64,000 nucleotides of DNA from Candidatus Chloroploca sp. Khr17 (GTDB lineage Bacteria; Chloroflexota; Chloroflexia; Chloroflexales; Chloroflexaceae). The position numbers and the translations under genes are program-made. The stretch covers positions 186,001 to 250,000 of the forward strand of contig NZ_RYFF01000002.1 of assembly GCF_004138165.1 (NCBI RefSeq), given 5' to 3'. Below are positions 9,704 to 14,427 of this stretch, piece by piece (within the stretch, counting starts at the first letter, position 1; every line of letters starts with the position of its first letter). The notes below the pieces were generated by a model. It was not told the DNA's origin, searched no databases, and saw only the letters and a program-made list of their open reading frames with translations.

Positions 9704-12112
9704 CTAGAGCGTTGCCTCGACCCGTTCCTCGCGATAGAACTCCATATTATCGCCGACCTGAACATCGCCGAAGCCATCAACAATCAAGCCGCACTCATAG
9801 CCTGAGGTCACCTCACGGACATCGTCCTTAAAGCGCTTGAGGCTACTAATGCGCCCATCGTGGATGACCGCGCCATTGCGTAGGACGCGCACCTTCTGGC
9901 CTGTACGCGTAATCTTGCCATCAGTCACATAGAGGCCAGCGACGACCTCACGCGAGGGCAAGCGGAAGGTATTGCGCACATCAGCGAAGCCTTCGACAAC
10001 CTCCTTAAAGGTTGGCGCAAGCATACCCACCATCGCCTTTTTGATATCATCGGTCAATTGATAGATGATATTGTAGAACCGAATATCAATGCCTTGATGT
10101 TCGGCTGCCCGGCGGGCAGCGGGGTCAGGGCGGACATTAAAACCAATAATGATTGCCTGCGACGCCATCGCGAGATTCACATCGCCCTCACTGATGGCAC
10201 CGGTAGCGCGATGGATTACCCTGATCTGCACCTCATCTTGCGACTCACTGAGTTGCTTGAACTGGTGCTCGATCGCCCCGAGCGAGCCTTGCACATCAGC
10301 TTTCAAGATCACATTCAGATCTTTGACCTGTCCCTGTTGCACTTTGCTGAAGAGATCCTCGAGAGTCGTACCTCGTGTTGATGCAATAGCCTCCATCCGG
10401 GTCTGGCGGGTGCGTTGGAGGGCCACCTCGCGGGCGATGCTGAGGTCATCAATGACCTGGAGAATATCGCCGGCCTGGGGTACGCCTTCAAGTCCAAGGA
10501 TTTCCACAGGGGTGGAAGGCTCAGCGTGACGAAGGCGTTTGCCACTATCACTAAACATCGACTTGATCTTGCCCGAGACCCCGCCGACGAGCACATTATC
10601 TTCGGGGCGGAGCGTGCCATTCTGGATCAAGACCGTTGCGACTGATCCTCGATTCTTGTCGAGTTCGGCTTCAATAATTGTCCCGACAGCAGGTGCATCA
10701 GGATTCGCTTTAAACTCTTCGATATCGGCCACGAGCAAAATCATCTCGAGGAGACCCTCGAGATTCAAGCGAGCCTTAGCTGAGACTTCTACCGAGGGCA
10801 CCTCACCGCCATAGGCCTCAACCACCACATCGTGAGCAGCGAGTTGTTGTTTGATACGATCGACATTTGCGGTTGGCAGATCAATCTTATTAATCGCGAC
10901 AATCATCGGCACGCCGGCTGCTTTCACGTGACTAATAGCTTCAAGCGTCTGGGGCATCACACCATCATCGGCTGCGACGACCAGGACAACAATATCGGTG
11001 GCTTGGGCTCCACGTGCGCGCATAGCGGTAAAGGCTTCGTGGCCGGGCGTATCGAGAAACGTGATCTTGCGATGATTGACCTCGATCTGATACGCACCGA
11101 TATGCTGGGTGATGCCGCCGGCTTCACCTTCGGCAACGCGGGCGGAGCGGATCGCATCAAGCAATTTTGTCTTGCCGTGATCGACGTGGCCCATAATGGT
11201 TACCACTGGTGGCCGTGGACGAAGTTCGCCTGGGGCCTGGGCATTGAGCACATCTTTGACATTATCCACAATGCCAATTAGTTGTTCAGGCACTTTCTCG
11301 GTGGTTTCGATGGCGAAGTCTGCCGCGATCAACGCAGCGGTCTCATAATCAATTTGCTGATTAATGGTTGCCAGCACCCCACCCTTCATCAACGCCTTCA
11401 GGATTTCAGATGCTCCGATCCCGGTGGCCTCAGAAAGCTCACGTACTGTCATCACACTGGGCAATTCAACGGGGCCGCGCGGGCGCACTGGCACGGCAGG
11501 TCCCGGACGTCCCCCAGACCCGGGGCGTCCAGACGGGCGGCCACGACCACCGCCGAAACTACCCTCACGGTCATCACTGCCAGGGCGATTGCCACCCGGT
11601 CGACCACTGCGGCTCCCGCCACTGCCGCTTCCTGGGCGACTATTGCGATTTGCATTTCCCCCGGGGCCACGATTACTGCCGCCGCCGGGGCCGCCGGGGC
11701 CACCGGGGCCACGATTACTGCCGCCGCCGGGGCCGCCGGGGCCGCGATTACTGCCGCCGCTGGGGCCGCCGGGGCCGCGGCTACTACCACCACCGGGGCC
11801 GCCGGGGCCGCGATTACTGCCGCCGCCGGGGCCGCCAGGGCCGCGGCTACTACCACCACCGGGGCCGCCAGGACCGCGGCTACTGCCGCCACCGGGGCCA
11901 CGCCCCCCAGAGCCACCAGGCCCCCCAGAGCCACCAGGCCCCCCAGAGCCACGGTTACTCGGGCCACCGGAACCACGTCCACCGGAGTCACCGGGGCCAC
12001 GCCCTCCGCCACTACCAGATCCGCGGTTGCCACCACCTGATCCACCCGAGTCACGACTGCCAGTAGCAGAAAGATCGGCATCACGGGAAGAGACGCCTGT
12101 AGTAGTTTTCAT
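9704..12112 (-). CDS. infB: Translation initiation factor IF-2
   Basis: An 802-residue GTPase that positions initiator tRNA on the ribosome. Residues 1-210 are almost entirely Gly/Pro/Ser/Arg repeats, many of the form [11 protein letters not shown]. An IF2 N-terminal helical domain follows (about 215-275, [19 protein letters not shown]). Then come the G domain with G1 GHVDHGKT (about 307-314), DTPGHEAF and NKIDLP, and the beta-barrel and C-terminal domains ending in the usual C2 fold ([13 protein letters not shown]-type tail, here [13 protein letters not shown]). The core is typical; the N-terminal repeat is unusually long and arginine-glycine rich. It lies downstream of rnpM and upstream of rbfA in the nusA operon. 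Confidence 0.97.
11660..11960 (-). repeat. GC-rich tandem repeats encoding the IF-2 N-terminal GPGG/SNR region
   Basis: Degenerate tandem units of about 33 bases encode blocks such as [11 protein letters not shown] and [11 protein letters not shown]. Unit boundaries drift and some units are shortened to GPGGSG. The stretch keeps the reading frame throughout, so it is coding and probably evolves by slippage. Confidence 0.8.
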
Positions 12113-12213: not shown

Positions 12214-12525
12214 TCATATCTTCGTTGTTTCTAGATCGCGCACATATGCCAGTAACAGAGCACTCACGTCAGGTTCAATACTTGCCACGCGCAGGGCTCG
12301 TTCGAGGTGATGCCGCTTGAGGGCAACCTCCCAGCAGGTTATCTCAGGGCAGAGATAGGCCCCACGTCCATTGAGGCGACCCGTCGGATCAACCACTACC
12401 CGGCCCTCAGCATTACGCACCACGCGAATAAGACCTTGTTTTGCGTCGGTACGCCGACATGCAACGCAGGTACGTTGAGGGACGGGCCTAGTTTTACGTA
12501 ATCCTGACGGATGTGCCATCTTCAC
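12214..12525 (-). CDS. rnpM: YlxR/RnpM family RNA-binding protein
   Basis: A 103-residue DUF448 protein. The family is marked by RTCVACRRTDAKQGLIRVV and the strand/turn segment GRLNGRGAYLCPEITCWEVA, both present here, with RHHLERALRV following. Members bind RNA; in Bacillus the homologue is reported as an RNase P modulator (RnpM). It lies 12 bases after nusA and about 100 bases before infB, its canonical place. MKMAHPSG and MAHPSG are both possible starts. No ribosomal L7Ae-like gene (ylxQ) follows, unlike in Firmicutes. Confidence 0.9.
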   Translation of the reverse strand: MKMAHPSGLRKTRPVPQRTCVACRRTDAKQGLIRVVRNAEGRVVVDPTGRLNGRGAYLCPEITCWEVALKRHHLERALRVASIEPDVSALLLAYVRDLETTKI

Positions 12526-12537
12526 CTCACGAGCAAG

Positions 12538-13860
12538 CTATTCTTCTTCTTCGTTGTCACCCTCACCTTCAATCAGGATATAGGATGCGATCAAGCGATC
12601 ACGGTCATAGATATACAACTTCTGTGATGTTGCGCGAAGTTGTATCGTCTCACCGACCAGTTCATTGCCGAGCGGGCCATAGCGATGGTTTTGATACATC
12701 ACGGTACCATCAGGCCTCACCTTGCGATGTTCAACCCGAGCGTGTGAAAGTTCAGCCTCAGTTTGCATCTGTTCAGCCTCGGCAAAGCCGCGCGCTTCTG
12801 AGGATGCCCGTTCTTCTTCCAAGAGGGCGGTTGCGCTCTTGATATCAATGCGCCAGCCGGTTAATTTTGCGGCGAGGCGAACATTTTGGCCCTCTTTGCC
12901 AATTGCCAGGGAGAGTTGCTTATCGGGGACGATCACGAGGGCTGCGTGTTCATCTTCATTCAGATGAACCTCAACCACCTGAGCTGGTGAAAGGGCATTA
13001 GCGATGAAATCTTTGGGATCAACTGACCATTGCACCACATCAATTTTTTCGCCGTTCAGCTCATTGACAATATTCTGAATACGGATACCCCGCATTCCAA
13101 CGCACGAGCCTACGGGATCAATCCCCTCTTGACGGGCGGCCACGGCCACCTTGGTGCGTAAACCTGGCTCACGGGCGATTGACTTAATCTCCACCGTGCC
13201 ATTATAAATCTCAGGCACTTCCATCTCAAAGAGGCGCATGATCAACTGTTTGTGCGTACGTGAAGCAATCAGACGAGGGCCACGATCCTCACGTCGGATC
13301 TCCATCAAATAGACTTTCAGGCGTTGACCGTGATAATAGCGGTCGTTATCCACCTGCTCTTTGGGTGGGAGGATGGCCTCGGCTTTGCCCATTTCGAGGA
13401 TCACATTGCCTTTGGCCATACGTTGAACTGTCGCAGTGATCAGTTCACCCTCACGATCCATATATTCGCCATAAATATACTCACGCTCAACCTCTTTGAT
13501 CCCCTGGAGCACAACCTGTTTTGCCGTTTGTGCGGCGATGCGCCCGAAGTCATGCGGCGTACTCTCAACCATAATCGTTTCGCCGAGTTGTGCATCCGCC
13601 TTGACTTTCTGGGCATCGGCGATATCTATTTCAAAGCGCTCATCGAGCACATCATCAACAACCTGTTTTTCGGCATAGACCACTGCCGCCCCGGATTGTG
13701 GGTCAAGGCGAACAGTGACCTCCATAGGGGGTAGATTTGTTCCCAGGGTGCGCTTATAGGCGGTGATGAGGGCTTTTTCCATCACGTCTAAAATTGCCTC
13801 TTTGGGAATGCCCCGCTCTGCCGCAATCTGTGAAATCGCTGTATAAAAGTCGCTCTTCAT
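12538..13860 (-). CDS. nusA: Transcription termination/antitermination factor NusA
   Basis: A 440-residue RNA polymerase-binding protein. The N-terminal domain (1-130) begins [19 protein letters not shown]. The S1 domain (about 131-205) contains [23 protein letters not shown]1 and KH2 follow, with [34 protein letters not shown] and the second [23 protein letters not shown] short charged tail ends [10 protein letters not shown]. Acidic repeats like those of enteric NusA are absent. It is the first gene of the translation operon; rimP, which normally precedes it, is not there. A strong promoter near 14119-14147 would give it a leader of about 250 bases. Confidence 0.97.
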
Positions 13861-13885
13861 TGGTTTACTTCTCGCCTACAATTAA

Positions 13886-13910
13886 GAAAAGTGGGGGCTA
13901 CCCACTTTTC
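13886..13910 (-). promoter_or_regulatory. Terminator-like hairpin in the nusA leader
   Basis: Arms 13886-13895 and 13901-13910 form a perfect 10-bp stem (GAAAAGTGGG with CCCACTTTTC) with a five-base loop. On the minus strand it is followed by TTAATTGTAG and then by the nusA ATG 25 bases on. It is positioned to act as an attenuator or to mask the ribosome-binding site. Confidence 0.5.
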
Positions 13911-14118
13911 CACAACCTCACAACTCAGGCCGCAATGCTAATAGATTGGTAGGCGCAACCAGTTCTGGTTGGGCGATACCTTTGCCTGGACGCAAACTCA
14001 GCGATACTTCATCGCAGTGTTCCTGAACGGGCTAATGCGGCGTGACCGAACGGTTTTCGCAAAATAATATGCACAGCAAGGCAGCAAGATGCTGCGCACA
14101 CAACCGTGTCGCGGTGAC

Positions 14119-14147
14119 AGTATAACATCTCTAGATCGCTTTGGCAA
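14119..14147 (-). promoter_or_regulatory. nusA operon promoter
   Basis: Read on the minus strand: TTGCCA (14147-14142), 17 bases, TATACT (14124-14119), with an extended TG one base before the -10 (TGTTATACT). Transcription would start near 14112. The leader of about 250 bases down to 13861 holds the hairpin at 13886-13910 and no convincing reading frame. Confidence 0.6.
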
Positions 14148-14160
14148 ACCTGAGGTCTGG

Positions 14161-14190
14161 CAAAATTGTGAGTAAAAACTCACAATTTTG
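14161..14190. promoter_or_regulatory. 13-bp perfect palindrome between divergent promoters
   Basis: Arms 14161-14173 and 14178-14190 (CAAAATTGTGAGT and its complement) flank AAAA. The site lies exactly between the -35 of the nusA promoter (14142-14147) and the -35 of the plus-strand promoter (14194-14199). An operator for a dimeric regulator is the simplest reading; a terminator is unlikely because both flanking genes point away. Confidence 0.6.
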
Positions 14191-14193
14191 GTA

Positions 14194-14222
14194 TGGACGT
14201 GGTGCCTAATCTTAGGTATACT
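14194..14222 (+). promoter_or_regulatory. Promoter of the 46-aa membrane protein gene
   Basis: TGGACG (14194-14199), 17-base spacer, TATACT (14217-14222). Transcription would begin near 14229, about 58 bases before the ATG at 14287. Confidence 0.5.
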
Positions 14223-14286
14223 TAGAATATAGACAACCACGTCGCCTGGCGACGATGGTAGTGTCATAGTCGAAAGGATTGCTGCT

Positions 14287-14427
14287 ATGGCTCTTTTCTT
14301 CATGCTGGTTGTGATGGCCGCCGTCCTGGCGCTGGTCTTCGTTGCCTCCTTCGTGTCTTTGCAGCGTGAGCCTGTGCTGCTTCCGATTGAGCGTTCATCT
14401 CGTCATGTACGACGTCGCGATATGTAG
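14287..14427 (+). CDS. Small single-span membrane protein (46 aa)
   Basis: A short reading frame starts at an ATG preceded by the purine-rich AAAGGA. It encodes MALFFMLVVMAAVLALVFVA then a polar, arginine-rich tail (ERSSRHVRRRDM). The first 25 residues form one strong membrane helix and the C-terminus is basic, so a cytoplasmic tail is expected. It has its own promoter (14194-14222) and a terminator directly after it (14435-14500), which supports a monocistronic real gene. No family recognised. It diverges from nusA across a palindrome. Confidence 0.65.
   Translation: MALFFMLVVMAAVLALVFVASFVSLQREPVLLPIERSSRHVRRRDM

Follow-up and report, generated by a model that had tools for sequence, protein, structure and literature searches.

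Background

In Bacillus subtilis, a NusA-stimulated intrinsic terminator in the 5′ leader is reported to limit read-through into nusA (Mondal et al. 2016, as described in PMC12288461), and interruptions of the distal U-tract are given as a feature of NusA- and NusG-dependent terminators of this species (PMC8060035). The rimP-leader of Naville and Gautheret (2010), called there the most ubiquitous predicted transcription attenuator, is presented as a short terminator-like hairpin in the leader of the nusA-infB operon, with a conserved GGG...CCC stem and a T-stretch, placed 4-130 nt before the first operon gene, which is rimP (PMC2965389). That account reports no visible antiterminator and proposes a protein reader, favouring NusA and leaving the choice between RimP and NusA open. 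The main text of the paper makes no mention of Chloroflexi, the open-licence papers searched contained no description of the hairpin studied here for Chloroflexota, and the passages on rimP and Chloroflexi do not state a loss of RimP.

Here, we analyzed the leader of nusA in Candidatus Chloroploca sp. Khr17, within a stretch of 64,000 nucleotides (the window), together with the corresponding regions of its family, its phylum and Bacillota. The comparison indicates that the site is probably a NusA-responsive transcription attenuator of the rimP-leader kind, standing without rimP. An attenuator of this kind is already known; what is new is its retention at nusA without rimP and, in one genome (G159), without infB.

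The hairpin in the nusA leader

An earlier note on this DNA had described a perfect 10-bp stem at 13886-13910, 25 bases ahead of the nusA start codon and followed by a weak U-rich tail. The coordinates were exact, with a loop of 5 nt, and the ATG at 13860 leaves a spacer of 25 nt (13885..13861). The tail, TTTTCTTAATTG, is indeed rich in U yet interrupted, TTAATTG stands directly 3′ of the stem on the minus strand, and the domains of the downstream gene bear out its identity as nusA (Table 1).

Table 1. The leader hairpin, the genes of the operon and the predicted promoter in the window
Feature	Position	Strand	Remarks
Hairpin GAAAAGTGGG-TAGCC-CCCACTTTTC	13886..13910	-	nusA leader; read 13910..13886; 10 perfect pairs, loop 5
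Interrupted U-tract TTTTCTTAATTG	13879..13890	-	Overlaps the 3′ arm of the hairpin
nusA	12538..13860	-	Pfam NusA_N, S1 and KH_5 above cut-offs
ylxR	12214..12525	-	Downstream of nusA
infB (translation initiation factor IF-2)	9704..12112	-	Downstream of ylxR
Predicted operon promoter TTGCCA-17-TATACT	14119..14147	-	TG before second hexamer; consensus match only, 10/12

Folded as RNA, the hairpin reaches -15.5 kcal/mol (z = -4.44; 1 of 200 shuffles was equally or more stable), and one extra G-U pair extends the stem to 11 bp (13911..13885). We searched both strands of 446 kb, comprising the window and 20 other stretches of the same genome, and found 13 hairpins whose stem reaches 10 bp and whose adjoining 8-base window contains 6 T or more, the nusA-leader hairpin among them; this window was allowed to overlap the 3′ arm, and both strands of three palindromes were counted separately. 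On its opposite strand the nusA-leader palindrome has 4 T in 8, and the terminator-like tail is thus directed at nusA. A simple terminator scan did not list this hairpin, probably because the longest stem absorbs the first U's.

We further compared the site with the described systems. The conserved GGG...CCC and the T-stretch of the rimP-leader recur in the window as GTGGG-TAGCC-CCCAC followed by the interrupted tract, and the distance of 25 nt lies within the range given for the rimP-leader, while some Chloroflexota hairpins stand farther away, up to 267 nt from motif start. The lower-case c...g printed beside GGG/CCC in that description is replaced by T and C in the window, and the first loop base varies among 101 non-redundant Chloroflexota sequences (T 59, C 23, G 12, A 7); we take these two letters as non-defining because the authors print them in lower case. 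Whereas the rimP-leader is described with rimP as the first gene, the window hairpin stands directly before nusA in a genome without detectable rimP, so we regard it as the same kind of attenuator but not strictly a rimP-leader. With the attenuation reported for B. subtilis it shares a terminator-like element in the leader of the nusA operon; NusA dependence, reported for that species, is here proposed by comparison.

RF01770 (rimP, 102 positions), an Rfam family that takes its name from this operon's leader, had no match in the window genome at E ≤ 10, nor in the leader at E ≤ 5. We take this family to be a model of the longer gammaproteobacterial form.

Conservation in the family, the phylum and Bacillota

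We found the pattern AGTGGG-N3-6-CCCACTTTTC once per genome, upstream of nusA, in 37 of the 41 genomes of the family, while the reversed pattern had no match in the 41 genomes. Among the four misses, G010, G035 and G036 also had no nusA match, and G038 has nusA but lacks the strict pattern. Across 30 family loci, the stem core and tail were near-identical letter for letter, and the preceding bases varied between genera; within the genus, three species share 97% identity over the entire leader, which is hence little informative.

A first set of 110 nusA loci (108 with at least 60 bases of leader) over-represented close relatives and contained some redundancy, the leaders of L031, L033, L035 and L059 being identical to family loci. 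In this set, GTGGG-N3-9-CCCRC was found upstream of nusA in 101 of 108 loci, with 103 matches in 138,549 upstream bases versus 2 in 499,286 bases elsewhere, whereas the match counts for five permuted control stems (two nested) were 1 to 7 upstream and 8 to 46 in the rest of the loci. The phylum was then sampled evenly with 121 genomes, of which 117 gave a nusA match; we analyzed 110 of these regions, and the other 7 genomes with nusA are family members, all of which carry the hairpin (7/7). The strict pattern was detected in 75 of the 110 regions, and a loose pattern, which in its final form allowed loops up to 12 nt and required two outer pairs, in 84 regions and 37 of 44 families, compared with 4 of 1100 dinucleotide-shuffled regions. 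Locus L168 matches the strict pattern and fails the loose one, which demands two outer pairs. Earlier shuffle controls gave 16/550 for the first loose form and 45/2200 for the strict pattern. Two further controls of the loose motif, reversed letters (7/110) and the other strand (46/110), were dropped as unclean because reversing a palindrome, or reading its opposite strand, leaves a stem that the loose pattern accepts.

The 26 misses among the 110 regions consisted of 14 genomes with rimP and 12 of the 96 without it, 8 of these 12 making up the entire family f12. Misses during the pattern searches were followed up in 20 longer regions (f10, 6/6; f12, 6/8; rimP-bearing genomes, 7/14; and the L250 genome). 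Four of the six f10 members have the motif, with 12 nt in the loop; near the gene in the remaining regions, no stem resembling GTGGG was followed by a T-rich tail. In these f10 loci (L286, L289, L290 and L291), the stem lies 60-68 nt before nusA, and within the 12-nt loop, of which TCGGTTCGCCAT is an example, a short GG-TTCG-CC hairpin could fold. Across the phylum, the motif starts 49 to 267 nt upstream of nusA.

The same leader hairpin was found in Bacillota, where GTGGG...CCCRC occurred upstream in 39 of 43 labelled loci (B. subtilis itself is outside this set and known here by description) and the stem GAGTGGG/CCC(A/G)CTC in 23 of 24 non-redundant sequences. In all five Bacillota genomes tested, a RimP_N match lies between hairpin and nusA, with the motif starting 102-145 nt before the match, in contrast to the window, which has no rimP. 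Conservation in relatives had been proposed as a check of the hairpin, and the stem is kept before nusA across the family and much of Chloroflexota. The nusA-leader hairpin is not a chance palindrome.

Base pairing, tail and leader structure

Pairing was counted in the strict-pattern hits of 99 non-redundant Chloroflexota, with no pair demanded outside the core and uncorrected for shared ancestry. Outer pair 1 was A-T in 88, C-G in 7, G-T in 3 and unpaired in 1 (98 paired versus 84.2 expected from column make-up), and outer pair 3 showed pairing in 97 sequences versus 84.8 expected, with G-T accounting for 25. Pairs of G-T also occurred at outer pairs 4 and 5 (16/99 and 18/99, respectively), and outer pair 6 was at chance level (45 paired versus 43.8 expected). 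Core letters were altered in 5 of the 84 loose hits, four with paired changes (GCGGG/CCCGC, GTGGC/GCCAC and, twice in one family, CTGGG/CCCAG) and one with a G-U pair; these variants are examples and not a test, because the loose search itself demanded pairing. A core U-G pair (CCCGC opposite GTGGG) was present in 6 of 24 Bacillota sequences. As comparative evidence, the G-U and compensatory pairs show that the hairpin works as RNA. Moreover, the core letters are nearly fixed beyond what pairing needs, which suggests a sequence-specific reader.

The 84 tails of the phylum sample had T at position 2 in 84, at position 4 in 80, at position 6 in 72 and at position 9 in 71, while position 5 was divided between C (42) and T (40). 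In 56 tails no T-run exceeded 4; the other 28 had an uninterrupted run of at least 5, so interruption is not universal. In 16 family leaders, a 6-mer complementary to the 5′ arm was found upstream in one (1.36 expected) and a 7-mer in none, and a second terminator-like hairpin occurred in two (L010 and L024) and was not conserved. Like the rimP-leader as described, the hairpin thus has no visible antiterminator, which points to a protein as the likely switch, in place of an alternative fold.

Absence of rimP and candidate readers

Neither RimP_N nor DUF150_C, the second RimP domain, had a match in the window genome, and RimP_N was absent from 40 of 41 family genomes. The only family match, of 102 bases (G023, C333:8090-8191; L141, the same match as L147), lies on a contig other than that of nusA and is possibly from a contaminating contig. 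Among the Chloroflexota-labelled genomes of the named loci, 29 of 30 had no RimP_N match, the exception being this G023 fragment, whereas the five Bacillota genomes were all positive. In the phylum sample, 107 of 121 genomes had no RimP_N match, and DUF150_C matched in 9 of 121, all within the 14 RimP_N-positive genomes; a RimP too diverged for both profile models would be missed in these counts. The hairpin was found at nusA in 84 of the 96 regions without rimP, or 91 of 103 when the 7 family genomes are added. Since the hairpin stays at nusA without detectable rimP, RimP is excluded as an obligatory reader.

In the 14 Chloroflexota genomes with rimP (f6, f16, f19 and f43; L252-L265), rimP adjoins nusA in all, and the motif was found in none within 600 bases (1093 in L252) before rimP. 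Hairpin and rimP are therefore mutually exclusive in the Chloroflexota sample but coexist in Bacillota; lineage is the sole explanation that we offer for the exclusion.

Separation from infB was seen in G159, a single-contig genome in which infB lies about 857 kb from nusA (loci L306 and L307); this rests on one genome and one event. Here the hairpin stands before nusA and ylxR (ylxR by eye), and the 7.5 kb around infB contain no such motif. By eye, the distant infB is accompanied by rbfA. G166, considered as a second genome with infB split off, was not counted, as its nusA and infB are on two contigs and a contig break would explain the separation. We thus consider NusA the best candidate for the reader, while YlxR is possible, still a candidate because its gene adjoins nusA in the window and in G159.

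Mechanism and alternatives

A search of the region for promoters gave 10 sites versus 5.5 expected by shuffling; the predicted operon promoter is identical in three congeners and would give a leader of about 250 nt, with the start of transcription predicted near 14112. Polymerase would start at this distance upstream and transcribe the leader, the GUGGG/CCCAC hairpin would form over the interrupted U-tract, and a fraction of polymerases would stop shortly before nusA. NusA on the polymerase would promote this hairpin-driven termination; when it is plentiful, fewer polymerases would enter nusA-ylxR-infB, and when it is scarce, more. Feedback by NusA through termination in the leader, as the earlier note had suggested, appears to be the best-supported reading on comparative grounds, namely the conserved RNA stem, the rimP-leader precedent and the attenuation reported for B. 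subtilis. Also in its favour are the mostly interrupted tail, comparable to the distal U-tract interruptions reported for NusA- and NusG-dependent terminators, the lack of a visible antiterminator, and the retention of the hairpin without rimP and, in G159, without infB.

The other readings differ in what the hairpin would respond to, or in whether it would act on transcription in this way at all. NusG too is described as stimulating B. subtilis terminators with distal U-tract interruptions (PMC8060035), and the proximity of ylxR to nusA, in the window and by eye in G159, would likewise suit a leader terminator that answers to NusG or YlxR instead of NusA, or one that imposes a fixed damping on operon output. 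We consider this unlikely, given that the near-fixed core letters suggest a specific reader and that the B. subtilis case, as reported, names NusA. Lying 25 nt before the start codon, near the presumed ribosome site, the window hairpin might also act after transcription, by protecting, processing or shielding the nusA message or by forming the 3′ end of a small leader RNA, with read-through unaffected. However, the T-rich tail persists even though the distance to nusA varies widely across the phylum (49 to 267 nt), and it persists in Bacillota, where the hairpin precedes rimP instead; we accordingly give a post-transcriptional role little credence.

An operator in the DNA, bound by a repressor or activator, would account for the near-perfect palindrome and for a core that is highly conserved in the family, but the G-T combinations at outer pairs 3-5 in Chloroflexota and CCCGC/GTGGG in Bacillota keep the RNA pair and break the DNA palindrome, and conservation extends beyond the stem solely into the T-tract, on the nusA side. 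We regard such an operator as highly improbable.

Building on the attenuator reading, we put forward a wider proposal with some reserve, as one that may well hold but could equally fail: the GUGGG/CCCAC hairpin would be an old, sequence-specific element of nusA itself, common to Bacillota and Chloroflexota, whose stem letters are read directly by the RNA-binding surface of NusA (or YlxR), and the frequent interruption of its U-tract would make termination depend on that reader. Because the element persists after rimP is lost and infB has moved away, the name 'rimP-leader' would be a misnomer. Chloroflexota may be viewed as natural deletion strains, with rimP missing in most sampled genomes and the hairpin kept at nusA; with RimP removed as a necessary reader, they offer clean systems for probing sequence-specific feedback by NusA.

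Other features around the operon

No Rfam family reached its gathering score in the whole window, and the tRNA search found none. FsrA, the sole Rfam match in 13840..14300 at E ≤ 5, was rejected, as it lies on the other strand and scores 19 bits versus a gathering score of 80 (E = 0.14). At the predicted start of the nusA leader (~14104-14061, minus strand), we noted a strong hairpin followed by ATTATTTT that is conserved within the genus; a scan of 16 family leaders, limited to loops of at most 8 nt, gave no counterpart. At 14161-14190, the minus strand reads CAAAATTGTGAGT-TTTT-ACTCACAATTTTG, an inverted repeat of 13 perfect base pairs around four loop bases, near-invariant in three congeners. 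The predicted nusA promoter lies on one side of it and a plus-strand promoter-like site on the other; the repeat may serve as an operator or as a terminator for both directions. Divergent from nusA, an open reading frame of 46 codons (14287-14427, plus strand) possibly encodes a small hydrophobic protein, as read by eye. In Pfam, the C-terminal extension of NusA (12538-12740, minus strand; residues 374-432) scores 26.4 bits against Mu-transpos_C_2, below the cut-off of 27, and the N-terminal part of IF-2 (~11460-12110, minus strand) contains a long Gly/Pro/Arg/Ser-rich repeat.
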